From the NCBI RefSeq assembly GCF_009498295.1, contig NZ_CP040813.1, forward strand, positions 2,611,001 to 2,675,000: a stretch of DNA of 64,000 nucleotides. The letters are read 5' to 3'. Origin of the DNA: Oceanihabitans sp. IOP_32 (lineage in GTDB: Bacteria > Bacteroidota > Bacteroidia > Flavobacteriales > Flavobacteriaceae). A program made the translations under genes and the position numbers. The notes beneath the pieces were generated by a model. That model worked only from the letters and a program-made list of their open reading frames with translations, ran no database searches and had not been told where the DNA came from. Position 1 is the first letter of the stretch, and every line of letters starts with the position of its first letter. This document shows positions 41,370-63,255 of the stretch, piece by piece.

Positions 41370-41412
41370 TGACCTAGGTCATTTCCAGGACTTTAGTTTA
41401 ATTCTAATTTAG
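41370..41412 (+). promoter_or_regulatory. Operator O1 and -7 box of the Hsp20 gene
   Basis: Perfect palindrome TGACCTAGGTCA at 41370-41381 and -7-like box TAATTTAG at 41405-41412; centres are 33 bp apart. This places a Crp/Fnr-type dimer near -41, the class II activation position. The ATG is at 41449. Confidence 0.75.
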
Positions 41413-41448
41413 CAATAAATAAATTGTTTAACTTAATACTATAAAATT

Positions 41449-41883
41449 ATGTCACTAGTAAAATTTAGAAGAAGACCTTTTGGAACTCTTATCCCATCAG
41501 ATATTTTTGAGACCAGTAATCTTCTTAGAAACGAGCTTTGGAATACGCAATTAAATGAACCAGCTCTAAACATTAAAGAGACTGATAAAGCTTTTGAAGT
41601 GGAATTGGCAGCACCTGGGTTCTCTAAAAAAGATTTTGAAGTTACCATTGATGAAGGTTGCTTAAATATTTCTGCAGAGAACACGCATTCTGAAGAGGAG
41701 AAAGAAGAAAATTACATGCGAAAAGAATTCAGTTACAATTCTTTTGAAAAAAGTTTACAGCTTCCAGACTCTGTAAAAGAAGAAGACATTAAAGCGAAGT
41801 ATCAAGATGGTATATTGCGTTTTAACCTCACTAAAAAAGAACCGTCTAAACAGCAAAAACCAAAAAAAATTGAAATTGCTTAG
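41449..41883 (+). CDS. Hsp20/alpha-crystallin small heat shock protein
   Basis: ATP-independent holdase. 144 residues; the alpha-crystallin domain spans about 36-135, with FEVELAAPGFSKKDFEVTIDEGCLNISAE, FNRSFxLP-like EFSYNSFEKSLQLPDSV and AKYQDGILRFNLTKKE. The C-terminal IEI anchors oligomers. It is the first gene of the stress island and carries operator O1 68 bp upstream. A long-stem terminator separates it from the P-type ATPase. Confidence 0.95.
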   Translation: MSLVKFRRRPFGTLIPSDIFETSNLLRNELWNTQLNEPALNIKETDKAFEVELAAPGFSKKDFEVTIDEGCLNISAENTHSEEEKEENYMRKEFSYNSFEKSLQLPDSVKEEDIKAKYQDGILRFNLTKKEPSKQQKPKKIEIA

Positions 41884-41910
41884 TTCTTGAAATTTAGTTT
41901 TTTAGCACCG

Positions 41911-41958
41911 CCCTCTTAGCCTAAACTTTTAACTTAAGTTTGTGCTAAGAGGGTTTTT
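41911..41958 (+). terminator. Intrinsic terminator after the Hsp20 gene
   Basis: CCCTCTTAGC / GCTAAGAGGG outer stem with AAACTT / AAGTTT inner stem and a following T-run. Partial read-through would supply the ATPase gene, whose own promoter was not seen. Confidence 0.85.
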
Positions 41959-42011
41959 AATTCTATTCGTTTTAAGCTTGTTATCCGTTAAAAATCCAAA
42001 TTCATACAAAT

Positions 42012-44884: not shown

Positions 44885-47188
44885 TTAATTCGTTTTAGTT
44901 GCATTTTTAATCTTTACATCTGTTAATTTTAAAGACGTACTCATTTTTGGTTTTTGAAGTTGAATTAATTTTCCTGATGAAACAGCTTTTTGTTGCTCCA
45001 TAATTATGCGCCCCATCAAATAACAAATTGTAGATTCTGCACCTTGGTTTAAGTTTGCATTGGTTTCCTCTAAACCATCATAGCACCCACCAGTTAACGG
45101 ATTATACATAATTTGATTTAAATGATTTTCACCTAAAAACCAGTTAAATGCCGTTTGCATCATCGTTTTATACATGGGATCTTTAAAAGTTTTATAAAAA
45201 AGATCTAAAGTCTGTATGGTGTACGAAACGTCAATAGGTTGTTCGCCATATTTATTTGGTTGCGTATCTTTTTTATACCACCCTTGGTTAGAAATTACTT
45301 TAAAATGCCCATTTACAAACATTTTGGATAGCAGAAAGTCAAAAGATTCTAAAGCCACTCTTTTATAAGATTCTTTAGTTGTTACCAAATAACTATAAAG
45401 CATCGCTTCTGGAAGAACACTATTGGCATAAGTTAAATAGTTTTCAAACCATTTCCAATTTTTCATAGCATGGACATCGTAATTTGTAATAAGATTTTTT
45501 GATAGTTTTTCAATAATTAGTATTGCTTTGTTGTCTTGTGTTGCAGTATTGTATAAATACAATCCTTTTATTACAAAACCAATAGCTCTGGGAGACAGTA
45601 TGTTTTGCATCCATTTTAAGCTTTCTAAAAAAGACAATCTAGCTCTATTAACCATAGTTTTTGGCAAATCATCTTTTAGGGAAATAACGGTTCCCAAAGC
45701 CCAAATTGCTCGCGCATTCGAATCTTCCAGATTTACATAATCATTTTTTATATGGGCGTTATTGTGCTTATCCACATAATTAATAAAAGTGCCAGAATCT
45801 GTCTGGCAACGCTCTATAAAAGACAGATAGGTATCTATATAAAATAAGTTTCCAGCGTTTTTAAAGTGTTTATAATGCATGCACATAGTAATAAGTGCGC
45901 GTGCGTTATCATCCAGAGTATATCCAGAATTAATATCTGGCTCCGATATTTTACTAAACTGTATCATGCCCAACTCGTTAGTCATATTTTTTAAATGATC
46001 TAGTTTTATTGGTGGATAATTGTATGTTATTTTAAACGACTTATCTATAATCCTTTTATAGAAATTAACTTGTTTTAAAGCCACATTTTCCCAAGATGTT
46101 GCTCTGGTCTTTTCAAAGGCAGCGAGAGCCATAGAGTTACGCAATTTGTCATCAGAAAGCAATTTTTCTATTCCCTGTGCCATTTGTTTGGAGTTCTCAA
46201 TATCAACCAGTATGCCTTCATGAGGTGATAGTACTTCATTGGTATGCGGAATTGCTGTTGCCACTATAGGGCAGGCACAACTCATAGCATAAGCAAACGT
46301 GCCACTTACAGCTTGATTACCATCTTTTGAAGTGAATAAATAAACATCTGTTGCTTTTAAATAGTCTAAAAGCTCATCTATTTCTAAATAGCGATTTATA
46401 AAGTCGACATGATTTTCTAGATTGAGTTCTTCAACAAGTGTTTCTAGAGAATCTCTATAGTTATCTTCATTATTTTTTATGGTGTGGGGATGTGTTTTTC
46501 CTAAAATTAAATATAAAACATTAGGAGTGTGTTTAATAATTTTTGGCATAGCTTTTAGTGCCGTTTCAATACTTTTTCCAGAACTTAAAAGACCAAAGGT
46601 TGATAAAACCGTACGGTGTTCTAAACTAAATTTGCGCTTAGCTGTTTGTGTTGTTTCATAATTAACACCATGAGTGCCGTGTGGGATGTAGGCTATCGTA
46701 TTTTCATTAATGCCATAATCTTTCATCAATATCTTTTTAGATTGCTGCGTCATAACAATAACAGAATTGCTATAAGAGATTAATAGTTTAACAAAAGCCC
46801 TTAATTTTTTGTCAGGATTTGGAATAATGCTATGAAAAGTAAAAGTTATAGGCTTTTCTAGTACATCAAGAAAATCTAAAATATAGTTACCATAAGTGCC
46901 GCCAAACAAGCCAAACTCATGTTGTATGTGTACCAATTTTATAGTGTCGTCATCATTTATTTCTCTGGCAATCCTACTATAATCTTCTTTTAGCTTAGGA
47001 TGTATGGTAAAGCGTGCATTTAGATTTGGTTCTGTTCTTTCTGAAATATCACAAATTTCGCAAGTTAAGGTCTCGCCAAACACATTGGTTATAGCAGAAA
47101 TAGTATCTTGAGTGTAGGTAGCGATGCCACATTGCGTTGGCGGAAATGTGGATAAAAATAGTATTTTGGGTAACGTATTTAAGGTCAT
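44885..47188 (-). CDS. GT4-type glycosyltransferase with C-terminal helical toroid domain
   Basis: 767 residues. The N-terminal part (about 1-390) is a GT-B glycosyltransferase of family 4 type: FLSTFPPTQCGIATYTQD, HIQHEFGLFGGTYGNY, LSTFGLLSSGKSIETALKAMP, and the donor-site block GNQAVSGTFAYAMSCACPIVATAIP. The C-terminal part (about 400-735) is an all-helical toroid-like domain: SGYTLDDNARALITMCMHY, EDSNARAIWALG and LNQGAESTICYLMGRI. It follows the GH130 gene by 2 bp, in the transcript controlled by operator O2. Together they probably build or turn over a mannose-containing intracellular glycan; this is inference. Confidence 0.85.
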   Translation of the reverse strand: MTLNTLPKILFLSTFPPTQCGIATYTQDTISAITNVFGETLTCEICDISERTEPNLNARFTIHPKLKEDYSRIAREINDDDTIKLVHIQHEFGLFGGTYGNYILDFLDVLEKPITFTFHSIIPNPDKKLRAFVKLLISYSNSVIVMTQQSKKILMKDYGINENTIAYIPHGTHGVNYETTQTAKRKFSLEHRTVLSTFGLLSSGKSIETALKAMPKIIKHTPNVLYLILGKTHPHTIKNNEDNYRDSLETLVEELNLENHVDFINRYLEIDELLDYLKATDVYLFTSKDGNQAVSGTFAYAMSCACPIVATAIPHTNEVLSPHEGILVDIENSKQMAQGIEKLLSDDKLRNSMALAAFEKTRATSWENVALKQVNFYKRIIDKSFKITYNYPPIKLDHLKNMTNELGMIQFSKISEPDINSGYTLDDNARALITMCMHYKHFKNAGNLFYIDTYLSFIERCQTDSGTFINYVDKHNNAHIKNDYVNLEDSNARAIWALGTVISLKDDLPKTMVNRARLSFLESLKWMQNILSPRAIGFVIKGLYLYNTATQDNKAILIIEKLSKNLITNYDVHAMKNWKWFENYLTYANSVLPEAMLYSYLVTTKESYKRVALESFDFLLSKMFVNGHFKVISNQGWYKKDTQPNKYGEQPIDVSYTIQTLDLFYKTFKDPMYKTMMQTAFNWFLGENHLNQIMYNPLTGGCYDGLEETNANLNQGAESTICYLMGRIIMEQQKAVSSGKLIQLQKPKMSTSLKLTDVKIKNATKTN

Positions 47189-47190
47189 GA

Positions 47191-48228
47191 TTATAAATTT
47201 TTTAGTGCGCTTAATAGTGAGTTAATATTAACTGATGCTACTGCCACACAACAATCTGCAGCGCCATAATAGATATAAAGCTCGTCGTTAAAAAGAGCTG
47301 TTCCTGTTGGGAAAACCACATTATTTACATAGCCTTCAATTTCATAGGGCTCTGTAGGAGAAAATAGTGGTTTTTTAAGTCTGCCAATCACTTTTGTGGG
47401 ATCATGCAAATCCAATAAAGCTGCCGAAGCGTGGTATATTAATTTCTTAGAATTACTCTGTACGCTGTGATATATAAATAACCAACCACTATCGGTCTCA
47501 ATCGGCGGACAACCACCTCCAATATGGCTAGTTTCGTGCATATATTCTGATTGTAATACAATGTGTTGGCTTAAATCTGAAATATAGGCTTCCCAAAATT
47601 CTTCGGTCAACTCAGAAGGATCATTAAAATAAAGGATTTGAATAGAGGGAAAAAGTCTATGTAAAACCGCGAATTTTCCGTTTATTTTCTTCGGAAAAAA
47701 AATAATGTTCTTATCCCACACATATATTTTACCCAGCATTAATCGTTGAAGCTTATAGCGCCCAAAAAGATCATAGAATAAGGAGTGAAGAATACTAATT
47801 TTATCATAATTATGTTTTATAAGTTCTGAGTATTCTTCAAAAGTAAACCTGGGCGTAATAATGCCTTGTCGTTCAAATGTTTTTAAATCTTTTGAAGTTG
47901 CGTAGGCACCAAATACATTAATCCCATCGTAGGCAGCATAAGAGAGGTAATAAGTATCGTCTATTTTGGTAATTCTAGGGTCTTCAACACCTTGAAATTC
48001 TTCTGGAATCTCAGGAAAAAACAGAGGTTCTTTACAACGCGCGACTACTTTTAAAGGACCTGCTAGTTTACAATATCCTATTGTGGAAAAGTTACCATCC
48101 CGTACAGCACGATAAAACATATGTACTGTGTTTCGTTCTTGCATGACTGCGGGATTAAAAACGCCTAAATTTTCAAAACTGTTGTTGGTTTTGTCGAGAA
48201 TAACCCCGTGTTTGGTCACTAATTCCAT
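47191..48228 (-). CDS. GH130 family beta-mannoside phosphorylase or mannosidase
   Basis: Five-bladed beta-propeller enzyme of family GH130. Blade motifs: LGVFNPAVMQERNTVHMFYRAV, the acid-bearing GVEDPRIT, HIGGGCPPIETDSGWLFIYHS and NVVFPTGTALFNDELYIYYGAADCCVAVA. Family members phosphorolyse or hydrolyse beta-1,4- or beta-1,2-mannosides. 345 residues, no signal peptide, so the substrate is intracellular. First gene of the operon with the GT4 gene, transcribed from the O2 promoter, divergent from the erythromycin-esterase fusion. An alternative is a role in making the polymer, since phosphorylases are reversible. Confidence 0.9.
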   Translation of the reverse strand: MELVTKHGVILDKTNNSFENLGVFNPAVMQERNTVHMFYRAVRDGNFSTIGYCKLAGPLKVVARCKEPLFFPEIPEEFQGVEDPRITKIDDTYYLSYAAYDGINVFGAYATSKDLKTFERQGIITPRFTFEEYSELIKHNYDKISILHSLFYDLFGRYKLQRLMLGKIYVWDKNIIFFPKKINGKFAVLHRLFPSIQILYFNDPSELTEEFWEAYISDLSQHIVLQSEYMHETSHIGGGCPPIETDSGWLFIYHSVQSNSKKLIYHASAALLDLHDPTKVIGRLKKPLFSPTEPYEIEGYVNNVVFPTGTALFNDELYIYYGAADCCVAVASVNINSLLSALKNL

Positions 48229-48241: not shown

Positions 48242-48284
48242 CTAAATTAAGGGTATTTAAAGCCCAACAAAATGACCTGAGTCA
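48242..48284 (-). promoter_or_regulatory. Operator O2 and -7 box of the GH130-GT4 operon
   Basis: TGACCTGAGTCA at 48273-48284 (TGAC-N4-GTCA) and, on the minus strand, TAATTTAG at 48242-48249, identical to the Hsp20 box. Centre-to-centre distance is exactly 33 bp. Confidence 0.72.
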
Positions 48285-48297: not shown

Positions 48298-48340
48298 TGA
48301 CCTAGGTCATTTGATTCCCAATAGATCTACAGTATATTTA
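48298..48340 (+). promoter_or_regulatory. Operator O3 and -7 box of the erythromycin-esterase fusion gene
   Basis: Perfect TGACCTAGGTCA at 48298-48309 and TATATTTA at 48333-48340, centres 33 bp apart. It lies 25 bp from O2, so one intergenic region carries two divergent, similarly built promoters. Confidence 0.74.
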
Positions 48341-48365: not shown

Positions 48366-50309
48366 ATGAAAGATATTAGCATAGCTGAGCAACTAATGGA
48401 TAAAGGCATAAGAAACACATTACTTATAAAAGCCTTCCAAGATATTCCAAAAGCCTTTATTTTATCTGAAAATCTGCACCCTTATTTTTATGAAAACATT
48501 AGTATTGAAAAAGCCATAAAAAAAACAGAGCCTAGAGTTATTGTTATAGCCAAAATGTTAGAGCAATTGCAAGTTAAAAAAGAAGAGCGTATTCTAATTA
48601 TAGGTGTAGATTCTGTTTATATTTTGGCTGCACTTTCTAAAATATATAAAGAGGTTTATGCCATTGAAACTAACGAAACATATTCAAAATGGGCCTTAGA
48701 AGTTTTAAAAAATTCAGAAATTACCAATGTACATATAAAAACAGGGAAACTTGAAAATGGATGGGACGCAGAAGCCCCATTTAATGCTATTTTAAGTGCT
48801 TTAGAATTCGAAGAAATCCCAGATACCCTAAAGCAACAATTAAAAATAGGCGCTAAGTTATTGTCGCCAGTGGGACCTGATTGGGCTCATGTTATGCTAG
48901 AAACTATTGAGCGAATCTCTGAAAACGAATATGAGACTAAAGCCTTGCGAGATAATTATTTCATTCCAAAACCAAAGGTAATTCCAGAAGTAGGAACCGA
49001 AATCTACCCCGAAAATGAAATTATAGACGAAATTGGAATGAGTTCCATCCCTTTTAAAACAATTAAAACTTTTCCAATTGAAGGCTTGTTAGAGCGCATT
49101 GGCGATGCCAAAGTGGTATTGTTAGGTGAGGCTTCGCACGGCACTTCAGAGTTTTATGCGATGCGGCAAGAAATTACCAAAGCACTTATAGAAAAAAAAG
49201 GATTCAACCTTGTTTGTGCAGAAGCAGATTGGTCTGATGCAGAGCAAATTAACAATTATGTAAGAGGCCAACATACAGCGCAGGATTGGATGCCTTTTTC
49301 ACGTTTCCCAGAATGGATGTGGAAAAATAAAGACGTTTTAAATTTTGTAGAATGGCAAAAGAAATACAATACCAAACACCATAATAGTGTCGGATTTTAT
49401 GGGCTGGATTTATACGGTTTAGAAAACTCCATTGATTTGGTGATTAAATATTTACAGGATATTGATCCGGACTTGGCAACATTAGCAAAATTGCGTTATT
49501 CTAGTATGATGCCTTATATGTCAAATCCCACATTATATGGAAAACTAGTAACCAGTAATAAATTGCAAAGTTGCGAAAAAGAAGTGCTAAAAATGCTGTT
49601 TGATTTGTTGAAAAATAAAAGTAAACTCAATCATTCTCAAGCCTACTTTAACGCCTACCAAAATGCCACAGTTGTGGTTAATGCAGAGCGGTATTATAAA
49701 GCCATGTATTACGGTAGCGCAGAATCTTGGAATTTACGAGATTTTCATATGTTTAGCACCTTAAAATCTTTATTGTCTTATCATGGCAAAGACTCTAAAG
49801 CGGTTGTTTGGGCGCACAATTCCCATATTGGTAATGCCTTGGCAACCGAAATGTATGCTCGAGGCGAAATAAATATAGGTCATTTATGCAAGGAGCATTT
49901 TGGTTCTAAATCTTATAATATTGGTTTTGGAACACATACAGGAACTGTGGCTGCGGCCAAAAACTGGGACGAAACCATGCAAGTGATGCCTGTAAATAAT
50001 TCTTTACCAGAAAGCTATGAGTATTTGTGCCACAAAACAAACGTTCCTAATTTTACACTGCCCTTACGAGCAGAACATTCAGAAAAAAATTTAAGAGTAT
50101 TTTTAAGTACACCTAGACTACAACGTGCAATTGGTGTGGTGTATAGGCCTGAAACAGAATTGAATAGTCATTATTTTAGAACCGCCTTACCTTCTCAATT
50201 TGACGAGTATATTTGGTTTAATAAAACAAAAGCCATTACCCCTCTTATAACCAAAACGGAAAAGACTAAACTTGGAAGTCCGCATCCTTTTGGGTTAATT
50301 GATAGGTAA
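48366..50309 (+). CDS. Fusion of degenerate PCMT-like domain and erythromycin esterase-like domain
   Basis: 647 residues. Residues 1-210 match protein-L-isoaspartate methyltransferase in overall order (IKAFQDIPKAFIL, YAIETNETYSKWALEVL, GWDAEAPFNAILSA, LKQQLKIGAKLLSPVGP). However, the SAM-binding loop, normally EIGTGSGY, reads IIGVDSVY (79-85) and lacks its glycines, so methylation activity is doubtful. Residues about 230-640 are an erythromycin esterase-like domain: LLGEASHGTSEFY with Glu255 and His258, CAEADWSDAEQINNYVRG and WAHNSHIGNA. Proteins with this esterase-like domain occur in bacterial stress clusters, where the natural substrate is unknown. Operator O3 lies 57 bp upstream. Confidence 0.85.
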   Translation: MKDISIAEQLMDKGIRNTLLIKAFQDIPKAFILSENLHPYFYENISIEKAIKKTEPRVIVIAKMLEQLQVKKEERILIIGVDSVYILAALSKIYKEVYAIETNETYSKWALEVLKNSEITNVHIKTGKLENGWDAEAPFNAILSALEFEEIPDTLKQQLKIGAKLLSPVGPDWAHVMLETIERISENEYETKALRDNYFIPKPKVIPEVGTEIYPENEIIDEIGMSSIPFKTIKTFPIEGLLERIGDAKVVLLGEASHGTSEFYAMRQEITKALIEKKGFNLVCAEADWSDAEQINNYVRGQHTAQDWMPFSRFPEWMWKNKDVLNFVEWQKKYNTKHHNSVGFYGLDLYGLENSIDLVIKYLQDIDPDLATLAKLRYSSMMPYMSNPTLYGKLVTSNKLQSCEKEVLKMLFDLLKNKSKLNHSQAYFNAYQNATVVVNAERYYKAMYYGSAESWNLRDFHMFSTLKSLLSYHGKDSKAVVWAHNSHIGNALATEMYARGEINIGHLCKEHFGSKSYNIGFGTHTGTVAAAKNWDETMQVMPVNNSLPESYEYLCHKTNVPNFTLPLRAEHSEKNLRVFLSTPRLQRAIGVVYRPETELNSHYFRTALPSQFDEYIWFNKTKAITPLITKTEKTKLGSPHPFGLIDR

Positions 50310-52088: not shown

Positions 52089-52745
52089 TTAAGGTTTTAT
52101 GGGTATTTTTATAACCACATCCACATCTGGCCAAAGTTTAGACACGCCATCTTCACCTTTATAAAGTTCGTAACAGTCTGTATTTAGCATTGTAAGGGCT
52201 TCTTCGCCTTTAAAATCTATTAAATTTATGTTAGTAAAAAGTCTAATCATATTATGTTTACTAATGGTATCGTTTAGTATTGAATATGTAAATGGAATTC
52301 TCTTGGAAATACTATTCATTTTTAATCTAAAAACACCTTCACCTTCTTTCGCTTTTAAAATAGTACCTACAATTTCTGAAGTATTAAAGGCTTCAAAAAA
52401 ACAGTGAAACAATTTAAAATCTCGTATTGGATGTTTAGAGTTTACAGATGCAGTTGGTATGGATAGTGTCGATTTATTCAATATTTTTTCAACCGTACCA
52501 GAAGTGCTTTTTGCTTCAAACGTACATGAATCAAAACTGCCTTGAACAGCTACTTTATTGGTAAACTTATAGGCTGTCCATTCAACGGATAGGCCTAATG
52601 TATCTAAATTATACGGCTTAGATTTTGAAACTTGGTTTTTAACAGAGATCTTATTTGATGTTTTTTCAACTGAATCCTTACAAGAACTCAATAAAAAAAG
52701 TAGCATCCAGTAAAAAGCATGTTTAAAATAATATTTCATTGGCAT
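52089..52745 (-). CDS. YceI-like domain lipoprotein
   Basis: Lipoprotein signal with lipobox LSSC, followed by a YceI-like lipocalin-type beta-barrel (VEWTAYKFTNKVAVQGSFDSCTFEAKSTSGTVEKILNKSTLSIPTASVNSKH). YceI proteins bind isoprenoids and respond to stress or low pH; the ligand here is unknown. Two starts are open: ATG 52745 (MPMKYY) and ATG 52739 (MKYYFK), the second being more like a normal signal peptide. First gene of the operon; promoter box TAAGTTTG and operator O4 lie immediately upstream. Confidence 0.85.
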   Translation of the reverse strand: MPMKYYFKHAFYWMLLFLLSSCKDSVEKTSNKISVKNQVSKSKPYNLDTLGLSVEWTAYKFTNKVAVQGSFDSCTFEAKSTSGTVEKILNKSTLSIPTASVNSKHPIRDFKLFHCFFEAFNTSEIVGTILKAKEGEGVFRLKMNSISKRIPFTYSILNDTISKHNMIRLFTNINLIDFKGEEALTMLNTDCYELYKGEDGVSKLWPDVDVVIKIPIKP

Positions 52746-52759: not shown

Positions 52760-52802
52760 CAAACTTAATGAGTAATTAGGTGATTACAAATGACTTGGGT
52801 CA
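52760..52802 (-). promoter_or_regulatory. Operator O4 and -7 box of the YceI-hydrolase-PRTase operon
   Basis: TGACTTGGGTCA at 52791-52802 (TGAC-N4-GTCA) and, on the minus strand, TAAGTTTG at 52760-52767, an exact TAnnTTTG match. Centres are 33 bp apart. On the plus side, towards the MscS gene, only TAATTTCG at 52845-52852 is seen, 52 bp from the operator centre. Confidence 0.75.
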
Positions 52803-52856
52803 GCTAAACTGATTAATATCATTTGAATTGAAAACTAACTAGATTAATTTCGGCTA

Positions 52857-53900
52857 ATGGAAACCATGTTATCTAAATTAGGCGTTACCGATTTTTGGCT
52901 ACAAATCGCAATAACCTTTGCGGTCTGTATCTTTCTGGGTTTACTTGTTAAATGGCTAGTGTTTTTTGTTTTAAGGACTTTTAATAAAAAAAAACCAACC
53001 GTTTTAAAATCTCAATTATTAAAACACTTAGAAACACCAGCTAAATTTCTGTTGCCTATTTTATTTATATACAGCGCTTTTAGCATATTTGATATAGGGG
53101 TCTTTTGGCGCAAATTTATTGAAGCTTTAATTATTCTTAATATTTCTTGGATATTGGTTGAAACCTTAAAAGCCATAGAAGAAATTGTAAAACAAAAGTT
53201 TGTAGCCAGCAATACGCATAAAGCTAAAGAGCGTAAGGCCATTACCCAAATGCGATTTTTAAAGAGTGTCTCTATAGCGGTTATTACGACCTTAGCTATG
53301 GCTACAATTTTATGGAATATCCCAACGGTAAAAACCATTGGTACCACCATACTCACTTCTGCTGGTATAATTGGTATAATTGCCGGTATTGCTGCTCAAA
53401 AATCTATTGCAAACCTTATTACTGGAATGCAAATAGCATTTACACAGCCTATAAAAATCGATGACGAAGTTGTTATTGAAGGCGAATTTGGCACTGTAGA
53501 AGACATCACCCTTACTTATGTGGTGGTAAAAACTTGGGATTGGCGGCGTTTGGTATTACCCTTAAACTATTTTAACGATCATCCTTTTATTAACAGAAGC
53601 TTTACTTCAGCCGAATTAATCGGGACTGTTTTTTTGTACTTAGATTATACATTTCCTGTTAATGCGCTACGAGAAAAATATATGATTATGATTGAAAAAA
53701 ATAAATTATGGGACAAAAAAATAGCCCAACTTTTAGTGACTAATACCAATGCTAGTAGTGTAGAAATAAGAGTGAGCTTTAGTGCAAAAAATGCCGACCA
53801 TGTTTGGGATTTAAGCTGCCAAATTAGAGAGCAACTTATAGCATTTATACAAGAGGAATTCCCAGAATCGCTACCAAAATTACGAACCAGAGCGAGTTGA
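52857..53900 (+). CDS. MscS-type mechanosensitive channel
   Basis: 347 residues. Three or more N-terminal helices, then the pore helix and beta domain of the MscS family: SAGIIGIIAGIAAQKSIANLITGMQIAFTQPIKIDDEVVIEGEFGTVEDITLTYVVVKTWDWRRLVLPLNYF. It opens under membrane tension to release solutes on osmotic downshift. The gene ends 4 bp into the possible TTG extension of the kinase and heads the operon MscS-kinase-regulator-AI-2E. Divergent from the YceI operon across operator O4. Confidence 0.92.
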   Translation: METMLSKLGVTDFWLQIAITFAVCIFLGLLVKWLVFFVLRTFNKKKPTVLKSQLLKHLETPAKFLLPILFIYSAFSIFDIGVFWRKFIEALIILNISWILVETLKAIEEIVKQKFVASNTHKAKERKAITQMRFLKSVSIAVITTLAMATILWNIPTVKTIGTTILTSAGIIGIIAGIAAQKSIANLITGMQIAFTQPIKIDDEVVIEGEFGTVEDITLTYVVVKTWDWRRLVLPLNYFNDHPFINRSFTSAELIGTVFLYLDYTFPVNALREKYMIMIEKNKLWDKKIAQLLVTNTNASSVEIRVSFSAKNADHVWDLSCQIREQLIAFIQEEFPESLPKLRTRAS

Positions 53901-53938
53901 AATTAAAAACGTTTAAAACCACTAAATACGGTATTTTA

Positions 53939-56900
53939 ATGAGTGATAAACTAAAAAATGAAGCCCTTTTTCAAAGTCTGTTTCAATTAACTACAGAAGC
54001 AATTTTAGTGGCAGATCTTAACGCTGTTATTTTAATGGCTAACCCTTCTTGTGAAAATTTGTTTAATTATAGTCCAGATGCATTAACAGGCGAAAATTTA
54101 GACATTCTTTTATCTAAAAAATCTATAGCACAACTTAAAAAGTATTTGGGTAATCCTGGAAAAACACGGGCTAATAATGTTCTCGATGTATTCGGAATTA
54201 AAAAAGAGGGAACAGCATTTAGCTTAAATGCTAGGTTGGGCACTACAAGACTTAAGGGTGAAAATTTAACAATAATTTTTTTAAAAGATGTAAGCCATAA
54301 AATTGAGAACCTTCTAAAAACGAAGCAAATTCATAATAAGTTATTAGAGAATAATCATAAATTCGACGCTTTAGTTAATAATGTAAATGGCATTTTGTTT
54401 CGTTGTGAAAACAATCGAGATTACACCATGCACTATATCAGCAAAGGCTGCTTAGAACTTACAGGATATCCCTTCGAAGATTTTAAAAACAAAACCATAA
54501 ATTTTGGTCAGCTCATTGTAGAAGCAGATCGCAATATGGTCTGGGAACACATTCAAACAGCTGTAAAACAGAGAATACCTTATAATTTTGAGTGCCGTAT
54601 TCGGCATAAAAATGGCGATATAAAATATATTTGGAAAAAAGGAGCAGCCCTTTATAACAGTCAAAATAAAGTTATCGCTCTAGAAGGTTTTATAACAGAT
54701 ATAACGACATACAAAGAACAAGAATTGGCCTTAAAAGCTAACGAAGCTAAAATGAAAGCCCTGTTAGAAGTTATGCCAGATATGATGTTTATACAAGATC
54801 TTCAAGGGAATTATATAGACTATTATACCGACACTCAAGATAAATTATTTATGCCACCCAACAAATTTATAGGTATGAATATGAGTAAAGTACTACCTCC
54901 AGATATATATCAAATAATTAAAACCTCTCACAATAAGGTTATAGAAACTGGAAAAATGCAAGTGGCTCAATATAGCGTTCAAGGTGAAAAAAATATAGAA
55001 TACTATGAGGCTCGTGTGGTGCTTATGAATAACCACAAGCTTTTAACTATTGTTAGAGATATAACAGAAAAAAAAGTAAAGGATTCTCAACTTAAAATAA
55101 AAAATAATGCGCTAGCATCTGCAAGTAATGGTATTCTTATTGTCGATGCAAAAAAACCAAATATGCCCATAATTTATTGTAACGCTGCTTTTGAAAAAAC
55201 AACTGGTTATAAACAGGAAGAAATATACGGTAGAAATTGTAATTTTTTGCAAGACGATGACAGGGACCAAAAAGCCATAAGTATTATGAAGCACGCCATC
55301 TTACATGGTGAAAATTGTAACGTGGTGTTACGTAATTACAAAAAAGATGGCACGCTTTTCTGGAACGAAATTACGATTACACCTGTGCTTGATAATCAGA
55401 ACCAGTTAACGCATTTTATTGCCGTACAAAACGATGTTACTAACAAGGTTAAAGCAGAAGATTTAAAAGATAAAAAACAACTAATCTTAGAGTTAATAGC
55501 ACAAAACAAACCTTTAAAAACCATTGTTAAAAAAATTATTAATACGGCAGAAACACATATTAAAGATTGTTTTGGCTCTATTTCTTTATTAAATAAGAAC
55601 ACTAAAACATTACACTTTTTGGCCGCACCAAACTTACCAAAAGCATTCTACAATTATGCTAATAATATGGCTATTGGTGCTAATGCAGGCTCATGTGGTA
55701 CGGCGGCATATTTAAAAAAAGAAGTTATAGTCGCTAATATAGAAACCCATATGCTTTGGGAAGATTATAAAGACATGGCTTTAAAGAATGGCTTAAAAGC
55801 CTGTTGGGCATTTCCAATAATGTCTTCCACCAAAGCGGTACTTGGCGTGTTTAGTATTTATAGTCTTTTGGCAAGGCAGCCATCTACAGCTGAAAAAGAA
55901 ATGCTTCTAGATATGAGCTATCTAGCCAGTATTGCCATAGAAAATCACAATAATAAAATAGAACTACAACAAAGTAAAAAACAACAAGAAATCTATACCC
56001 TTAATTTAGAGGATAAAGTACAAAAGCGCACACAAGAAGTAATGGCAACCGTACAAGAATTGGTTACCGTTAATATGGATTTAGAAGACCAAATACGTAT
56101 TACAAAAAAGGCTGAGAATGAAGCGCTTTTAAGAAAAAATATTATCTCGGCAGTAGCAAAAAATTTCCCTAAAGGCTTTATTGCCGTGGTAAACAAAAAA
56201 TTTCAACTCGTTTTAGCAGAAGGAGAAGCATTAGAGCAATTAGGCCTAAAACCTCACATTTTTAAAGGAATGACCATCGATGATCTTTCTATTTTCTCTG
56301 AAGAACGGAAATCACGAATAATGAACGATATTAAGAAAACACTCTCTAAAACCCATCTCTCTTTTGAAATTGAATACAAAAACAGGTACTTCTCTGTAAA
56401 TACAGCCCCGTTATATGGTGATAATAATCAAATATCTCATGCCTTAATGGTGTATACCGAGGTTACAAGACAAAAAGAAATTGAGTTTACCATGCAAAAA
56501 GCCTTAAAGAAAGAGCAAGAATTAAACGAACTAAAATCGCGATTTATATCTATGGCATCCCATGAGTTTAGAACGCCTTTAAGTGCTATTCTTACCTCTG
56601 CAATATTAATAGCTAAGCAAAATGAACCAGGAAAAGAGAAGAAACGAGAAAAGTACGTAACTCAAATAGAAAATAATGTAAAACACCTTGTAAATGTGTT
56701 AAACGACTTTCTTTCATTAAGTAAAATTGGAGAAGGAGAGGTTAAGCCAACATTAAAACGTATCGACCTAGTTTCTTTTTCAAAATTAATAATTAAAGAG
56801 ATTAAACCAACTTTAAAAAACGGACAAACAATAAGTTTAACGACTAATAATAAAGCCGTCACTTTAGGTTCAGATGAAAAACTATTACGGCATATAATTA

Positions 56901-57214
56901 TCAATTTGTTGTCTAATGCCTCAAAATATTCAGATGAAAAAAGCCATATAGATTTTATAATATCTATAAGCGAAAATCAGGTCATTATTCAAATTACAGA
57001 TCAAGGTATAGGTATTCCGAAAGAGGAACAACAACATTTATTTACACGGTTTTTTCGAGCTAAAAACGCTGCCAATATTGAAGGCACAGGGTTGGGTTTA
57101 AATATCGTAAAAAGTTATACCGAATTATTAGGCGGCACAATCGCTTTTAAAAGTAGTTTAAATAAAGGATCAACGTTTAAGATTGAATTCCCGATGCTTA
57201 AGGAGACGCAATAA
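53939..57214 (+). CDS. Hybrid-sensing histidine kinase with PAS, LOV and GAF domains
   Basis: 1091 residues, cytoplasmic, no membrane helix. Order: PAS (about 7-120), PAS (138-262), PAS (265-385), LOV-type PAS (388-505), GAF (510-680), coiled coil (680-735), PAS (735-845), HisKA (His875 in SMASHEFRTPLSAI) and HATPase (IINLLSNASKYS, DQGIGIP, GTGLGLNIV). The fourth PAS has GRNCNFLQ with Cys434 and Gln438, Asn466, Asn476 and Gln497, the spacing of phototropin LOV2. I chose the ATG at 53939; a TTG at 53897 overlaps the MscS gene. No receiver domain of its own; the regulator 49 bp downstream is the likely partner. Confidence 0.93.
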   Translation: MSDKLKNEALFQSLFQLTTEAILVADLNAVILMANPSCENLFNYSPDALTGENLDILLSKKSIAQLKKYLGNPGKTRANNVLDVFGIKKEGTAFSLNARLGTTRLKGENLTIIFLKDVSHKIENLLKTKQIHNKLLENNHKFDALVNNVNGILFRCENNRDYTMHYISKGCLELTGYPFEDFKNKTINFGQLIVEADRNMVWEHIQTAVKQRIPYNFECRIRHKNGDIKYIWKKGAALYNSQNKVIALEGFITDITTYKEQELALKANEAKMKALLEVMPDMMFIQDLQGNYIDYYTDTQDKLFMPPNKFIGMNMSKVLPPDIYQIIKTSHNKVIETGKMQVAQYSVQGEKNIEYYEARVVLMNNHKLLTIVRDITEKKVKDSQLKIKNNALASASNGILIVDAKKPNMPIIYCNAAFEKTTGYKQEEIYGRNCNFLQDDDRDQKAISIMKHAILHGENCNVVLRNYKKDGTLFWNEITITPVLDNQNQLTHFIAVQNDVTNKVKAEDLKDKKQLILELIAQNKPLKTIVKKIINTAETHIKDCFGSISLLNKNTKTLHFLAAPNLPKAFYNYANNMAIGANAGSCGTAAYLKKEVIVANIETHMLWEDYKDMALKNGLKACWAFPIMSSTKAVLGVFSIYSLLARQPSTAEKEMLLDMSYLASIAIENHNNKIELQQSKKQQEIYTLNLEDKVQKRTQEVMATVQELVTVNMDLEDQIRITKKAENEALLRKNIISAVAKNFPKGFIAVVNKKFQLVLAEGEALEQLGLKPHIFKGMTIDDLSIFSEERKSRIMNDIKKTLSKTHLSFEIEYKNRYFSVNTAPLYGDNNQISHALMVYTEVTRQKEIEFTMQKALKKEQELNELKSRFISMASHEFRTPLSAILTSAILIAKQNEPGKEKKREKYVTQIENNVKHLVNVLNDFLSLSKIGEGEVKPTLKRIDLVSFSKLIIKEIKPTLKNGQTISLTTNNKAVTLGSDEKLLRHIIINLLSNASKYSDEKSHIDFIISISENQVIIQITDQGIGIPKEEQQHLFTRFFRAKNAANIEGTGLGLNIVKSYTELLGGTIAFKSSLNKGSTFKIEFPMLKETQ

Positions 57215-57266: not shown

Positions 57267-58337
57267 ATGAAAAAAGTACTGATAATTGAAGACAATGATG
57301 ATGTTCGCGAAAACACTGCCGATATTCTTGAGCTTGCAAATTATGCCGTAAATACTGCTCAAAATGGTAAAGCTGGTGTAGAAAAGGCTATAGAACTGCT
57401 TCCTGATGTGATTATTTGCGATATTATGATGCCAGAACTCGATGGTTATGAAGTTTTACAAGAATTAAATAAACATTCGAAAACCGCTAGCATTCCTTTT
57501 ATTTTTTTAACGGCAAAAACAGACAAATCGGACGTGCGAAAAGGGATGAATTTGGGAGCAGACGATTATTTAACCAAACCCTTTACAGAAAACGAATTGT
57601 TAGACGCTTTAAACAGCCGTTTAAAAAAACATGATTTTTTAAAAAGAGAATATTCTCAAACCATAGAGGGGGTTTCTCAGTTTATTGAAGCGGCCTCTAA
57701 TTATTTAAATATAGACCATTTGTCTAAAAAATATGTGCCACAAAAATTTAAAAAAAAGACGATACTTTTTAGAGAGGGAAATACCGCAAATGCCTTATAT
57801 TATATACAAAGTGGTACAGTAAAGACTTATAAAACCACAGAAAAAGGGAAAGAATTTATAACCGGCTTGTTTAGTGCAGGCCATTTTGTGGGGCAATTAT
57901 CATTGTTGTCGGATTACGGAAGTTATATAGAATCTGCGGCAACCCTCGATGATGTCGAACTTTACGAAATACCAAAATCAGATTTTACAAGCCTAATTCA
58001 AACCAATAAAGATGTTGCTAACAAGTTTGTGAGTCTCATTTCTAATACTTTGGTAGATGTGCAAAAACACATGGTGAATGTGGCGTATGCTTCAGTTAGG
58101 CAGCGTGCTGCAAAAGCGCTGTTGGATATTCATAATAAGCGCATTTTGCTCAATAACGAAGCCGTAGGTATAAGCATAACAAGAGAAGATTTTGCTTGTC
58201 TTATTGGTACAGCCACAGAAACTGCTATAAGAATGTTAACCGAATTTAAAGAAGAAGGTTTAATATCTATTGGTAGTGCTAGAAAAATAATAATTGAGGA
58301 TATAGAGACGCTTGAGAATTTGGCTTTATTCGGATAA
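57267..58337 (+). CDS. Response regulator with receiver domain fused to Crp/Fnr domain
   Basis: 356 residues. Receiver domain (1-122) with acidic pocket IIEDNDD, phospho-acceptor Asp52 in ICDIMMPELDGYE, Thr in FLTAKTD and Lys in TKPF. A cyclic-nucleotide-binding-type domain (about 150-270, FREGNTANALYYIQSGTVKTY, AGHFVGQLSLL) and a winged helix-turn-helix (304-333, ITREDFACLIGTATETAIRML) follow. The recognition helix has TETAIR where CRP has RETVGR. No Cys cluster or haem ligand is apparent. The start is ATG 57267 (a GTG one codon earlier is less likely). It is the best candidate to bind the TGACCTAGGTCA operators of the island. Confidence 0.92.
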   Translation: MKKVLIIEDNDDVRENTADILELANYAVNTAQNGKAGVEKAIELLPDVIICDIMMPELDGYEVLQELNKHSKTASIPFIFLTAKTDKSDVRKGMNLGADDYLTKPFTENELLDALNSRLKKHDFLKREYSQTIEGVSQFIEAASNYLNIDHLSKKYVPQKFKKKTILFREGNTANALYYIQSGTVKTYKTTEKGKEFITGLFSAGHFVGQLSLLSDYGSYIESAATLDDVELYEIPKSDFTSLIQTNKDVANKFVSLISNTLVDVQKHMVNVAYASVRQRAAKALLDIHNKRILLNNEAVGISITREDFACLIGTATETAIRMLTEFKEEGLISIGSARKIIIEDIETLENLALFG

Positions 58338-58351
58338 CACTAATTTTTTTT

Positions 58352-60301: not shown

Positions 60302-60631
60302 CTATTTTTGAAATTGCGCATTTTTCTTTTTGAGATCTTCTAGCTTAGCTTCCAGAGAGGTAATAATATCTTCTGCTTTATAGCTCATGCTAGAAATGGT
60401 CTCATCTAGTTTTTTATCAAAATCCTCTTTTTTTTCGTTTGCAGATCTGGTAAGTTCGTCTTTAGCTTGTTTTAATCTATCAGAAATTTCCTGTGTAGTA
60501 TCTGTTACCGTATGTTTTATTTTATTTCTAGTTTCACTCCCTTTGTTTGGCGCAAATAAAATACCTAGTCCAGATCCAATGGCTGCGCCTGCTAAAAATG
60601 ATACAAATAAATTTCCTTTATTGTTTTCCAT
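60302..60631 (-). CDS. YtxH domain small stress protein
   Basis: 109 residues. An N-terminal glycine-rich transmembrane segment (LFVSFLAGAAIGSGLGILFAPNKGSETR) is the YtxH hallmark; the remainder is a charged amphipathic coil (about 35-105). YtxH proteins are general stress proteins of unknown role. A degenerate operator (O5) and box lie upstream on the minus strand. Confidence 0.9.
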   Translation of the reverse strand: MENNKGNLFVSFLAGAAIGSGLGILFAPNKGSETRNKIKHTVTDTTQEISDRLKQAKDELTRSANEKKEDFDKKLDETISSMSYKAEDIITSLEAKLEDLKKKNAQFQK

Positions 60632-60668
60632 GGTATTAATTATTTAAGTTAAAAATATTTTATTAGCG

Positions 60669-60711
60669 TAAAGATACCGAGAGATTTTACGTTTTAAAAT
60701 GATGTAGATCA
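60669..60711 (-). promoter_or_regulatory. Degenerate operator O5 and -7 box of the YtxH gene
   Basis: TGATGTAGATCA at 60700-60711 (TGAT-N4-ATCA) and minus-strand TATCTTTA at 60669-60676, centres 33 bp apart. One base per half-site departs from the TGAC form. Confidence 0.5.
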
Positions 60712-60760
60712 GTTGGTCTTGGTTTGTTATTTTTTTTATTATGCAAAGTACTTTTATGTT

Positions 60761-60813
60761 TGACCTAGGTCATTTACAATGTTTATGGATTGGATTATCT
60801 TGGATTACATTTG
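60761..60813 (+). promoter_or_regulatory. Operator O6 and -7 box candidates of the gene at 60837
   Basis: Perfect TGACCTAGGTCA at 60761-60772. At 33 bp centre distance lies TATCTTGG (60796-60803); an exact TAnnTTTG match, TACATTTG, lies at 60806-60813, centre distance 43 bp. The ATG is at 60837. Confidence 0.65.
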
Positions 60814-60836
60814 ATTTTTTAATAATTTTTTAAACC

Positions 60837-61331
60837 ATGCCAACCAGTCAAAATACAAAGCGAAAACAAGTTTATCTTAATAGTTTTAAAAGCCTTTCTC
60901 AATTAGAGAGCGCTGTAAAACGTTTAAAAAAAGATTATACCGACGACTTTCAGATTTCAATTCTTGGAAAAGTTGCCCAATTTTGTAACGATAAAAACTT
61001 GGTGGTGTTAAAAGATATCTCTGTTTTAAAGACCTATTGGAAAGATTTGATGGGTACTAAGAAATTTGGAGACTTCTATAGCCCCGAAATAGGATATGTT
61101 TTTATTGTAGGGTCTTTAGTACCCACGTTTCTTCATAAAATAAACGGAAAACCTTTGGCGGCACTTTCTTCTGGATCTTACGGAATTTTTCGGGGCATTG
61201 GCTTATCGGAAACTCAAGCAGCGTCTTATATGGAACTATTAAATACTGGTCATTATTTATTAATTTTAAGAGGATTTGAAGCTACTATACAAGAATTAAA
61301 AAAATACAGTAGTACTATCGAAAATTCTTAA
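60837..61331 (+). CDS. YflT/general stress protein 17M-like protein, divergent
   Basis: 164 residues, soluble. YLNSFKSLSQLESAVKRLKKDYTDDFQISILGKV looks like the N-terminus of YflT-like general stress proteins (sequence element followed by a helix and strand), and GIGLSETQAASYMELLNTGHYLLILRG like their C-terminal half. The middle (VLKTYWKDLMGTKKFGDFYSPEIGYVFIVGSLV) is not recognised. Function unknown; operator O6 upstream makes a stress role likely. The 286-bp spacer to the next gene shows no gene. Confidence 0.55.
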   Translation: MPTSQNTKRKQVYLNSFKSLSQLESAVKRLKKDYTDDFQISILGKVAQFCNDKNLVVLKDISVLKTYWKDLMGTKKFGDFYSPEIGYVFIVGSLVPTFLHKINGKPLAALSSGSYGIFRGIGLSETQAASYMELLNTGHYLLILRGFEATIQELKKYSSTIENS

Positions 61332-61617: not shown

Positions 61618-62766
61618 TTATTTTTCAATTATCCATTCAGATTTGATGTTTAAACTGTCATTTGAGATTACCCTAACGATGGCATTGTATGTATATGCAG
61701 ACACCCAATCTTTGCCTCGCATAGGTTGCCAACATTTTTTTGGTTCGAACTTTATTAAAATGTTCTCATTTTCCTTTTTTACAGTATATTCTCCACCAAT
61801 AATGCCCTCAATATTATCGACGCCAAGACTAAATTTACCGTTTACTTCTGTATTATTTTTCATTGCTGATATTAAAGGGAAAGATGGTGAAAAACGGTAG
61901 GTAGATTTATGGTTGTTTGCATTATATGTGATTGATTTTATTTCTTGAAAGCCGGAATTGTCAAAGAGTTCATAGACAATATCATCAGTTTTATGCTCAA
62001 TTTTAAAGTTAGCATTTCGTTCTTCATTCCAAAAAAACGCTAAAGGATTTAATGAGTAAACCACTTTAAAGCACTTTTCACCCTCTACTTTTATTGGAAC
62101 TTTTGTAATCTGCATTGGTTTATCGTCTATCTTAAAATCAATTTCTGTGTTTTCAATAGGAATAAAACCAGCATTACTCAAGAATATAAACGGAAACCTT
62201 TTAACTTCATTCAAGTCGGCACCTATTGTAGCAAGAAATGCATATCGCTTTAAAGTTGTCTGATTTTCTTTTAACTTAATTTTTATGTGTTCGCCTGTTT
62301 TAATCTTAACATCAAAAGTAACAGCTAAGCCTTGTTTAGTATCCTCAAAAGTGAAATCAAAATCTTGAGTCTCTGCTATTACCCAGTCAAAATTGGGTTT
62401 TAAATACTTCTTATCGAGTGTTACATCAGGATTGATGTAGTTTTCAACTTTCCCATTGTGATAAAAGACAACAACAAATGCACCTTTTTTATCTTTTTGA
62501 ACAACCAATTCTACCGTTTTAATTGTTGGGTGGTTATTGATATGAATAAGTATGAGTTTTCCAAAGTCTGTATGTCCAAAATTAAATGGACTAATAAAAA
62601 TCTTTTCTGCATTAGTATCATAAATATCAGACGAGGTTATGCCTTGGTTTAAATACGTATTTGTATCCACAGCACTGGACTCTAATTCAATATTACATCC
62701 TGTAAAGCTTATAATTATAGAAATAAGGATTGGTATTAGTAATTTAGAGTTTTTCATAATCGTCAT
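61618..62766 (-). CDS. Hypothetical lipoprotein
   Basis: 382 residues. Signal peptide with lipobox FTGC, most likely from the second Met (ATG 62757, MKNSKLLIP) though ATG 62766 is also open. The remainder is a beta-rich, Lys-rich secreted region with no motif I recognise; internal similarity was not seen. No operator and no co-transcribed partner. Confidence 0.7.
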   Translation of the reverse strand: MTIMKNSKLLIPILISIIISFTGCNIELESSAVDTNTYLNQGITSSDIYDTNAEKIFISPFNFGHTDFGKLILIHINNHPTIKTVELVVQKDKKGAFVVVFYHNGKVENYINPDVTLDKKYLKPNFDWVIAETQDFDFTFEDTKQGLAVTFDVKIKTGEHIKIKLKENQTTLKRYAFLATIGADLNEVKRFPFIFLSNAGFIPIENTEIDFKIDDKPMQITKVPIKVEGEKCFKVVYSLNPLAFFWNEERNANFKIEHKTDDIVYELFDNSGFQEIKSITYNANNHKSTYRFSPSFPLISAMKNNTEVNGKFSLGVDNIEGIIGGEYTVKKENENILIKFEPKKCWQPMRGKDWVSAYTYNAIVRVISNDSLNIKSEWIIEK

Positions 62767-62835
62767 TAATTAATCATATTCATGATGTTTGTAACTACGG
62801 GGCACAACTACGATTTATATTTTTAAAATAGCTAT

Positions 62836-62872
62836 AAAAAAAGAAACGAGAAGTTTAAACTTCTCGTTTCTT
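62836..62872 (-). terminator. Perfect palindromic terminator
   Basis: AAGAAACGAGAAGTTT / AAACTTCTCGTTTCTT, a 32-bp perfect palindrome; on the minus strand a U-run follows. It faces the predicted transcript from the promoter at 63213-63255. Confidence 0.85.
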
Positions 62873-63207
62873 GAAGCGTTTGTAGCATTTACTGCTTCTT
62901 AATTGTTTGGAGTGAACTATTTCCACACCATATAAAATTAAATTTTAGGTCTATGCTAACCGCTTCATACTAGTTACACTTGTTAAACTGCGAATAACAA
63001 ATGTTTTAAGATAGTCTGGGACGTTATTATGTCCCAGACTAAGGTTGCAAACTATTCTTTTAGTAGGATTAGGGATTACATACACTTATAAAAAGTCAAC
63101 GTAGAAACGCTTAAACCTTATTAAGAATGTTTTGCTATTTAGGGCTGGTGCTTGTTCTCACACCCAGAACCTATGTTTTTTTCAAAGAACACTAGTGTCT
63201 TTATTTA
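62836..63207 (-). ncRNA. Candidate operator-controlled small RNA, about 370 nt
   Basis: A minus-strand transcript from the promoter at 63213-63220 would run through gene-free DNA to the terminator at 62836-62872. No frame longer than a few codons starts in it. It contains a second strong hairpin, TAGTCTGGGAC / GTCCCAGACTA (63012-63041), and a weaker CTGGTG / CACCCAG pairing near 63145-63167. Existence is inferred from promoter plus terminator plus structure; no known RNA family is recognised. The window 62767-63351 holds nothing else. Confidence 0.5.
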
Positions 63208-63212
63208 TAGTG

Positions 63213-63255
63213 CTAACTTACAGTGTTTTATAGTTTTTAGAAATGACCTAGGTCA
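63213..63255 (-). promoter_or_regulatory. Operator O7 and -7 box facing a gene-free region
   Basis: Perfect TGACCTAGGTCA at 63244-63255 and minus-strand TAAGTTAG at 63213-63220, centres 33 bp apart as in the other units. On the plus side the same distance gives AAACAATT, so the promoter points left. Confidence 0.65.

Follow-up and report, generated by a model that had tools for sequence, protein, structure and literature searches.

In class II activation by E. coli CRP and FNR, a protein with a Crp-type helix-turn-helix (HTH) binds as a dimer whose site has its centre at -41.5, at a single rigid distance from the core promoter; the cAMP-contact residues of CRP lie in the motifs GELGLF and RSAW. 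How activators act on the Bacteroidota sigma factor has been little explored, and the promoters concerned differ from those of E. coli. In the general stress response of Alphaproteobacteria a LOV kinase and PhyR have a sigma-factor partner switch as their output, while mycobacterial DosR has a LuxR/NarL-type HTH and haem-sensing kinases. We analysed a 64,000-nucleotide window (the whole stretch of DNA under study) of the genome of Oceanihabitans sp. IOP_32 and consider it highly probable that eight sites within it serve an activator of the Crp/Fnr superfamily as class II operators. This activator would be a receiver-Crp protein driven by the neighbouring kinase, with an RNA of about 202 nt among its targets. 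The -41.5 centre, rigid spacing and Crp-type HTH of the putative binding protein are those of CRP and FNR, but the promoters carry the Bacteroidota -7 element instead of TATAAT, the operator is TGACCTAGGTCA and input would come through a receiver domain rather than cAMP or an Fe-S cluster. As with LOV/PhyR a LOV kinase is tied to a stress regulon, although the output here would be a DNA-binding Crp fusion. The regulator is not of the NarL/LuxR type of DosR, combining HTH_Crp_2 with a LOV-type PAS kinase. What it would share with the DosR/DevR dormancy regulon (PMC4410610) is two-component control over genes for universal stress proteins, Hsp20 and products with erythromycin-esterase and PRTase domains. 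The sugar regulon of Bacteroides Crp (BT4338) is likewise a Crp-family regulon of Bacteroidota with a palindromic operator (wwwTATGTTnTAnAACATAwww, at carbohydrate genes) predicted by comparative genomics, although the accessible part of that account mentions no receiver domain for BT4338 (PMC3878776). Among the matches listed by a literature search, none reported this motif, this RNA or regulators of this class from Bacteroidota, most subscription journals lying outside the scope of that search.

All seven 12-mer palindromes of the initial annotation were recovered at their positions, and each has, on one strand, a TAnnTTTG-like box centred exactly 33 bp from the palindrome centre (7/7), where a box is any match to TAnnTTTG at five or all six of its fixed letters. 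Six of the seven boxes match 5 of the 6 letters and one matches all 6, as for the Bacteroidota -7 element. The hsp20 promoter (41370..41412, +) has its operator TGACCTAGGTCA at 41370-41381 and its box TAATTTAG at 41405-41412, ahead of hsp20 (41449-41883). The GH130/GT4 promoter (48242..48284, -; operator 48273-48284, box TAATTTAG) precedes the genes for GH130 (47191-48228) and GT4 (44885-47188), and the promoter of a PCMT-erythromycin-esterase fusion (48298..48340, +; operator TGACCTAGGTCA, box TATATTTA) precedes a gene at 48366-50309. Further right are the 'YceI' promoter (52760..52802, -; operator 52791-52802, box TAAGTTTG), followed by 52089-52745 and then the hydrolase and PRTase genes, the YtxH promoter (60669..60711, -; operator 60700-60711, box TATCTTTA; YtxH at 60302-60631) and the 'YflT-like' promoter (60761..60803, +; operator TGACCTAGGTCA, box TATCTTGG) of a 164-aa gene at 60837-61331. 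The names 'YceI' and 'YflT-like' are those of the initial annotation; neither product has a Pfam match at 0.001. These six protein-coding promoters do point at the genes assigned to them, but the seventh (63213..63255, -; operator TGACCTAGGTCA at 63244-63255, box TAAGTTAG), previously taken to face a gene-free stretch, precedes a conserved structured RNA. The count of seven was also one too low, the window holding an eighth site (52810..52852, +) with TGATTAATATCA at 52810-52821 and the box TAATTTCG at 33 bp, which would serve the MscS-kinase-regulator-AI2E genes.

Of 686 other strand-positions in the surroundings of the seven sites, 13 carry such a box, giving a chance probability for 7/7 of ~1e-10 at one given offset, or ~5e-9 allowing 50 offsets, although the sites were picked by a reader and independent comparative data therefore weigh more. 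Across the islands of 12 related genomes 33 bp stood out with 61 boxes, whereas no other offset between 15 and 64 had more than 5, the neighbouring ones having 0 (32) and 1 (34). All 28 named Flavobacteriaceae loci contain sites, with a box at 33 bp on 168 of 422 site-strands against 13 at the next offset, and the last two box positions are T in 66% and G in 62% of 166 related sites. Together with the co-occurrence of motif and regulator described below, these peaks support the earlier proposal of a Crp/Fnr-type regulon. The single rigid offset fits an activator that touches polymerase better than it fits repressor operators, or sites of another dimeric factor, whose spacing would reflect overlap with the -33 region, and TGAC-n4-GTCA suits the half-site register of Crp/Fnr proteins. 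We accordingly regard repression or another factor as very unlikely, even with a conserved TTT following the palindrome at -35 to -33, where the operator would abut the older -33 element (-7 coordinates from the available part of PMC6847099). That same source puts the -7 element of F. johnsoniae at -12 to -5, and a palindrome centred 33 bp from it would lie at -41.5, in agreement with the class II position near -41 that had been suggested; the start site is placed by those coordinates (PMC6847099).

The 3,475,698-bp genome has four copies of exact TGACCTAGGTCA, each of them inside the island, and none of its reversed control; allowing one mismatch adds one further place (2775524), against two for the reversed control. 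The pattern TGAYn4RTCA-N23-TAnnTT has 46 matches compared with 3 for its reversal, of which 8 belong to 41370-63255, another 3 follow directly to the right of the window and 35 are elsewhere. The remark of the initial annotation that no site lies outside the island holds for exact TGACCTAGGTCA but not for the 33-bp geometry, found elsewhere with FNR-like palindromes, and the island continues beyond the window, past the extent proposed for it. The boxes, AT-rich and only loosely matched (5 or 6 of 6 letters), are of the kind that a chance arrangement in AT-rich intergenic DNA would give; that explanation has next to no probability given the island-only TGACCTAGGTCA, the 46 against 3 pattern matches, the offset peaks, with 61 boxes against at most 5 in the 12 islands, and the motif-regulator co-occurrence.

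The proposed regulator (57267..58337, +) consists of a receiver domain, a cNMP-binding fold and a Crp HTH. Matches to cNMP_binding (6.1e-22) and HTH_Crp_2 (3.9e-14) place it in the Crp/Fnr superfamily, and the receiver (Response_reg, 7.9e-31) retains CDIMMPE, the acidic pair and KPF, with a kinase gene directly upstream, as in a response regulator. Inspection of the sequence found GQLSLL and ESAA in place of the cAMP-contact motif of E. coli CRP, which speaks against a cAMP receptor but not against membership of the superfamily. The Fe-S cysteine cluster of FNR, which the superfamily does not require, is not present in the regulator, which has two cysteines only and none in an N-terminal cluster. 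The histidine kinase (53897..57214, +) comprises PAS domains, a LOV core (GRNCNFLQ), GAF, HisKA and HATPase; GRNCNFLQ agrees with the GxNCxFLQ core including the photo-adduct Cys, and the segment matches LOV structures (best 4.9e-31). An MscS-type channel (52857..53900, +) is the first gene of what, judging from spacing, is a kinase-regulator operon. The kinase lies directly upstream of the regulator in 12/12 islands, the LOV motif being kept in 8 of the 12 orthologous kinases and missing in 4.

Of the 12 genomes with a receiver-Crp orthologue 10 have the TGACCTAGGTCA motif, as do 3 of the 187 without one (p = 9e-13). Counting against the link, G056 and G054 have the orthologue but lack the exact motif, and G018, G111 and G126 show the reverse. 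In the nine other genomes 15 of 19 motif matches are no more than 35 kb from the gene for the regulator, and among 41 sources the recurrent targets are Hsp20 (24), 'YflT-like' (24), YtxH (22) and the kinase of the pair (16). The layout of palindrome and box at one fixed distance recurs in related genera, and the genes that carry it probably answer to a single regulator linked to a light-sensor-like kinase. Winogradskyella thalassocola and Maribacter arcticus are examples of cultured, non-pathogenic relatives that have the system. The receiver-Crp at 57267-58337 is, on its co-occurrence with the motif, the likely regulator of the sites. A plain 225-aa Crp (L007, C1:2526093-2526767), present in 116 of 199 genomes, was tested because its recognition helix (GTATESAIR) is nearly that of the island regulator (GTATETAIR). 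It shows no association with the motif, being present in 10 of the 13 genomes that have the motif and in 106 of the 186 that do not (p 0.24), and the motif-bearing G063, G108 and G111 lack it at E <= 1e-55. It is therefore improbable that another Crp/Fnr protein, above all this one, regulates the sites and that the receiver-Crp is merely located in the island.

We also identified a paralogous receiver-Crp (C1:533593-534636) with the domain order of the island regulator and a PAS kinase beside it. Its sites have FNR-like TGATTAATATCA palindromes, with dehydrogenases and universal stress proteins as neighbours. Because they share the 33-bp geometry, the paralogue may be what acts at part of the degenerate sites, among them 52810. 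The identical geometry, and the identity of the 52810 palindrome to two close to the sites of the paralogue (347034 and 536663), would suit a single merged regulon in which both proteins share all sites. This reading we consider as improbable as regulation by the plain Crp: exact TGACCTAGGTCA is found nowhere but in the island, the helices differ (GIAPETLIR in the paralogue), and some receiver-Crp at E <= 1e-60 occurs in 85 of 199 genomes, the motif in only 13. About half of the related sites have the half-site TGAT instead of TGAC, which makes the assignment of single degenerate sites uncertain. The downstream half-site GTCA is similarly frequent in kinase/MscS promoters (9/22) and Hsp20/YflT/YtxH promoters (37/70; p 0.46), while sites ending ATATCA make up 10/22 and 5/70 respectively (p 1.3e-4), a contrast chosen after looking and thus a hint only.

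Under the preferred reading, with the island receiver-Crp as activator, the PAS/LOV/GAF kinase would phosphorylate the adjoining regulator. A dimer of the regulator would bind TGACCTAGGTCA-like palindromes centred at -41.5 and recruit the housekeeping RNA polymerase of Bacteroidota to the TAnnTTTG-type -7 element. Genes for stress survival and the ~202-nt RNA would thereby be turned on, and probably the operon of the regulator as well. In other Bacteroidota the loci tend to have two operators in tandem, one 55 bp and one 33 bp from the box. A wider reading, which we hold only tentatively and think rather doubtful, is that marine Flavobacteriaceae possess a blue-light stress programme in which a LOV kinase signals to a receiver-Crp acting at -41.5 on a divergent sigma factor, with a dedicated, sometimes tandem, structured RNA, while related regulators of other Bacteroidota use paired dimers at -63.5 and -41.5. 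If true, this programme would correspond in function to the general stress response under LOV/PhyR and would include a new family of regulatory RNA. Confirmation of the regulon would add a conserved stress programme of a major marine bacterial group and a new family of regulatory RNA. Its natural promoters, tens in number, all share one fixed geometry, and its candidate activator has a plausible signal input. Clades with one site can be contrasted with tandem-site clades, and the RNA gene would report on the switch.

The conserved, covarying and structured RNA behind the 63244 site has predicted ends at 63006..63207 (-), giving ~202 nt with a terminator-like hairpin at its end, and is likely to be regulatory. 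A coding gene was rejected as the target, the strand holding only ORFs of 44 and 23 aa. RNAalifold retained two helices, and single-sequence folds predict a long central stem. A simple terminator scan returned 62841-62872 and missed the terminal hairpin, which we accepted because of its covariation. Rfam gave no match in the window at gathering, and an E-value search of 62780-63340 gave 11, all far below gathering. The family was first picked by eye as 11 of 30 rows sharing 5' sequence, leaving out the other 19; two antisense partial matches in L060 were dropped, and L073:2 has no upstream sequence. Matches to the RNA model lacking an upstream palindrome are L073:213, L109:11964(-), L062:18776(-) (half site only), one in G032 (L174) and a second match in G108 (L067:7219(-), L178). 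At E <= 0.001 the RNA is present in 6 of the 12 orthologue genomes and, as weak matches, in three genomes without the orthologue (G032, G120 and G160).

All seven palindromic 12-mers that the initial annotation had placed in the stress island at 41370-63255 are present, and each of the seven has on one strand a -7-like TAnnTTTG box (at least five matches to the six fixed letters) whose centre lies exactly 33 bp from that of the palindrome, as had been proposed. The surroundings of the seven sites offer 686 other strand-positions, of which 13 carry such a box, and the chance of seven out of seven at one offset is about 1e-10, or about 5e-9 allowing for 50 offsets. TGACCTAGGTCA has four copies in the 3.48-Mb one-contig genome, all within the island, while its reversed form has none in the whole genome; tolerating one mismatch adds a single place, 2775524, the reversed control at the same tolerance giving two. 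The 12-mer also occurs in two papers, on Lysobacter and on Streptococcus agalactiae.

The degenerate form TGAYn4RTCA-N23-TAnnTT recovered all seven sites and had 46 matches in the genome versus 3 for the reversed pattern. The remark that no site was noticed outside the island holds for exact TGACCTAGGTCA but not for the geometry, as 38 of the 46 matches fall beyond 41370-63255, and the count of seven is exceeded by an eighth match inside that interval at 52810-52821(+), TGATTAATATCA with TAATTTCG at 33 bp, facing genes for MscS, a kinase, a response regulator and an AI-2E transporter. Three matches shortly beyond the right end of the window (2676266, 2676328 and 2682377, the first two also overlapping a predicted ORF) face OmpA-like, dodecin and RtcB genes, so that the island continues outside the window; its right part also contains an integrase-core (rve) transposase gene (L015:3572-4411(+)). 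Of the remaining 35 matches, many of which resemble TGATTAATATCA, 11 fall between 327 and 357 kb. Another 7, between 507 and 577 kb, surround the gene for a 45 % identical receiver-Crp paralogue (C1:533593-534636). Genes behind these sites include those for a universal stress protein, glucokinase, short-chain dehydrogenases, a CMD protein and a patatin. The 33-bp geometry thus belongs to the receiver-Crp type of regulator and not only to the island. FNR-like TGATTAATATCA palindromes with this geometry were seen both near the paralogue, which lies next to genes for a PAS kinase and universal stress proteins (L006, L085), and at 327-357 kb (C1:320000-360000; L083, L084). Elsewhere in the window, a gene-poor array of imperfect repeats at 24600-25910 has spacings of 150 and approximately 298 bp and contains TGAGATGTCTCA three times.

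We examined 199 family genomes, each from another genus by the search tool's tally. The exact palindrome with TAnnTT at 33 bp was found in 13 (26 matches) and the reversed motif in none, while a regulator orthologue (at least 51 % identity, the next group being at 48 % or less) was found in 12. Motif and orthologue co-occurred in 10 genomes (p = 9e-13); two had the orthologue only (G056, G054) and three the motif only, with a single match each (G018, G111, G126). Outside our own genome, the nine genomes that combine motif and orthologue have 19 motif matches: 15 no more than 35 kb from the regulator gene, two on other contigs (G011, G037) and two elsewhere in G001. Across all 67 TGACn4GTCA sites, taken on both strands, in our island and the regulator surroundings of 11 other genomes (two contigs for G037; the G011 motif contig left out), TAnnTT boxes numbered 61 at 33 bp, one at 34, none at 32 and no more than five at each other offset in the range 15-64. 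A second set, 28 named Flavobacteriaceae loci among the best 80 relatives listed (Winogradskyella, Gelidibacter, Maribacter, Arenibacter, Polaribacter and others), overlaps the first, since L116 is by coordinates the same contig as G054; all 28 had 33-bp sites, with TAnnTT on 168 of 422 TGAYn4RTCA strands versus 13 at the next-best offset. Majority letters of 166 distinct sites read TGACCTAGGTCA followed by TTT. Of these, the search itself fixed TGA, TCA and the choice of C/T at the fourth letter and A/G at the ninth. The inner letters left free are degenerate (C 44 %, T 60 %, A 71 %, G 39 %), and the TTT is present at 89, 81 and 73 %.

The F. johnsoniae -7 element is described in PMC6847099 as T-12 A-11 T-8 T-7 T-6 G-5, with starts 4-5 nt downstream. 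These coordinates put the box centre at -8.5 and, with the 33-bp offset, the palindrome centre at -41.5, in agreement with the class II position previously suggested. The conserved TTT would fall at -35 to -33. The older -33 element, TTTG, lies close to this position and is much less evident in that study's own data (PMC6847099). Most likely, a phosphorylated receiver-Crp dimer would activate from -41.5, and the 52810 site would give autoregulation or control by the paralogue; binding, phosphorylation, direction, signal and the role of the RNA described below are what we infer beyond the sequence. The motif reported for Bacteroides Crp in a comparative study differs from the island operator (PMC3878776), and the comparison with DosR rests in part on PMC4410610.

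The regulator (57267-58337(+)) is a fusion of a receiver domain with intact phospho-acceptor motif, a cNMP-binding fold and a Crp HTH; by inspection, it has neither the cAMP-contact motif nor the Fe-S cysteines of classical members. Its recognition helix, GTATETAIR, is shared by 11 of 12 orthologues (GAAKETAIR in G054), the paralogue group having mostly forms like GIATETLIR. A plain Crp in the same genome, with helix GTATESAIR, was a real rival as the regulator, but it occurs in 116 of the 199 genomes with no link to the motif (10/13 motif genomes versus 106/186 others, p 0.24). Adjoining the plain Crp gene is a gene (L007:2222-2788(-)) for a 188-aa protein resembling a short LOV domain. LOV domains have NCRFLQ at their core, including the photo-adduct cysteine, so this protein, with NPKFLQ, lacks that cysteine. 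The receiver-Crp regulator is directly preceded by its kinase in all 12 islands. Besides PAS, GAF, HisKA and HATPase domains, the window kinase (53897-57214(+)) has a LOV core, GRNCNFLQ, in a segment matching LOV photoreceptor structures. Eight of 12 orthologous kinases share the LOV pattern, those of G108, G063, G056 and G168 lacking it, so light would be at most one input.

Genes up to 220 bp downstream of 33-bp sites were surveyed in 41 sources (13 stretches of the 12 genomes and the 28 named loci), yielding 260 genes with a median of 71 bp from palindrome centre to start codon. Families, named from Pfam except where stated, include Hsp20 (24 genes), 'YflT-like' (24), YtxH (22), patatin (17), the kinase of the regulator pair (16), universal stress proteins (14 in 11 sources), BON (12 in 8 sources), an unnamed 128-aa family (8), dodecin (7), MscS and a PPDK-N-domain protein (6 each), PCMT-esterase, CMD, an unnamed 168-aa family and an outer-membrane-factor-like family named by inspection only (5 each), WG-repeat and a P-type ATPase named by its match (4 each) and two others (3 each); 55 clusters are singletons or pairs. 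The window 'YflT-like' and 'YceI' proteins had no Pfam match at 0.001, both names being those of the initial annotation. Dodecin, a flavin-binding protein, lies behind 33-bp sites in 7 of the 41 sources, one gene with its own site being L015:1400-1603(+), and would be in keeping with a theme of flavin or light.

Behind palindrome 63244(-) the ORFs found were of 44 and 23 aa only, and the stretch had been called gene-free; it instead contains a conserved, structured non-coding RNA of approximately 202 nt (63006-63207(-), predicted ends). When the Flavobacteriaceae sources were scanned for sites lacking any ORF of at least 45 aa within 300 bp, 30 rows were returned, 11 of which had one common downstream sequence, alignable over 202-219 nt; tandem copies are present in Winogradskyella thalassocola (three) and another Winogradskyella (two). 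The window RNA folds with z = -3.87 (0/200 shuffles as stable). Pair-preserving changes on both sides affect 18 of 24 consensus pairs, 90 % of alignment cells pair versus 39-50 % with the partner slid by 1-3 columns, and none of 500 shuffles reached any of five covariation measures. One helix is a terminator-like hairpin conserved in shape while its letters change. A covariance model of the RNA matched 9 of the 199 genomes, of which 6 belong to the 12 that have a regulator orthologue; in 61 sources it made 22 matches, the 11 training sequences included. TGAn6TCA lies 45-48 nt before the RNA start in 8 of 13 examinable non-training matches (L060 twice, L068 twice, L075, L095, G120, G160; L170 and L171 repeat L068 and L075) and is absent there in five; it is exactly at -48 in six, which is informative in these outside members because it was there that the training sequences had been trimmed. 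No Rfam family fitted, and a regulatory RNA is the natural guess.

The other 52 of the best 80 relatives listed (L113, L114, L117-L166) are from Cytophagales, Saprospiraceae and others, with a few contigs labelled as other phyla. Here boxes lie most often at 55 bp (31 strands, 22 loci) or 56 bp (17), and less often at 33 (15) or 34 bp (11). A second, weaker TGAn6TCA (at least 4 of 6 letters) lies exactly 22 bp downstream, thus 33 bp from the box, on 28 of the 31 strands at 55 bp versus a background of 48/294, and on the 17 strands at 56 bp it lies at 22 bp in 11 and 23 bp in 5, although these counts are not independent as some loci are close relatives. These promoters look like tandem sites at approximately -63.5 and -41.5, in which the -41.5 position would be kept and a stronger upstream dimer added. 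Receiver-Crp relatives (40-46 % identical) are also found on plasmids of Hymenobacter, Runella and Spirosoma (records H1-H6), with a sensor kinase annotated under or beside the match in four of the six rows.
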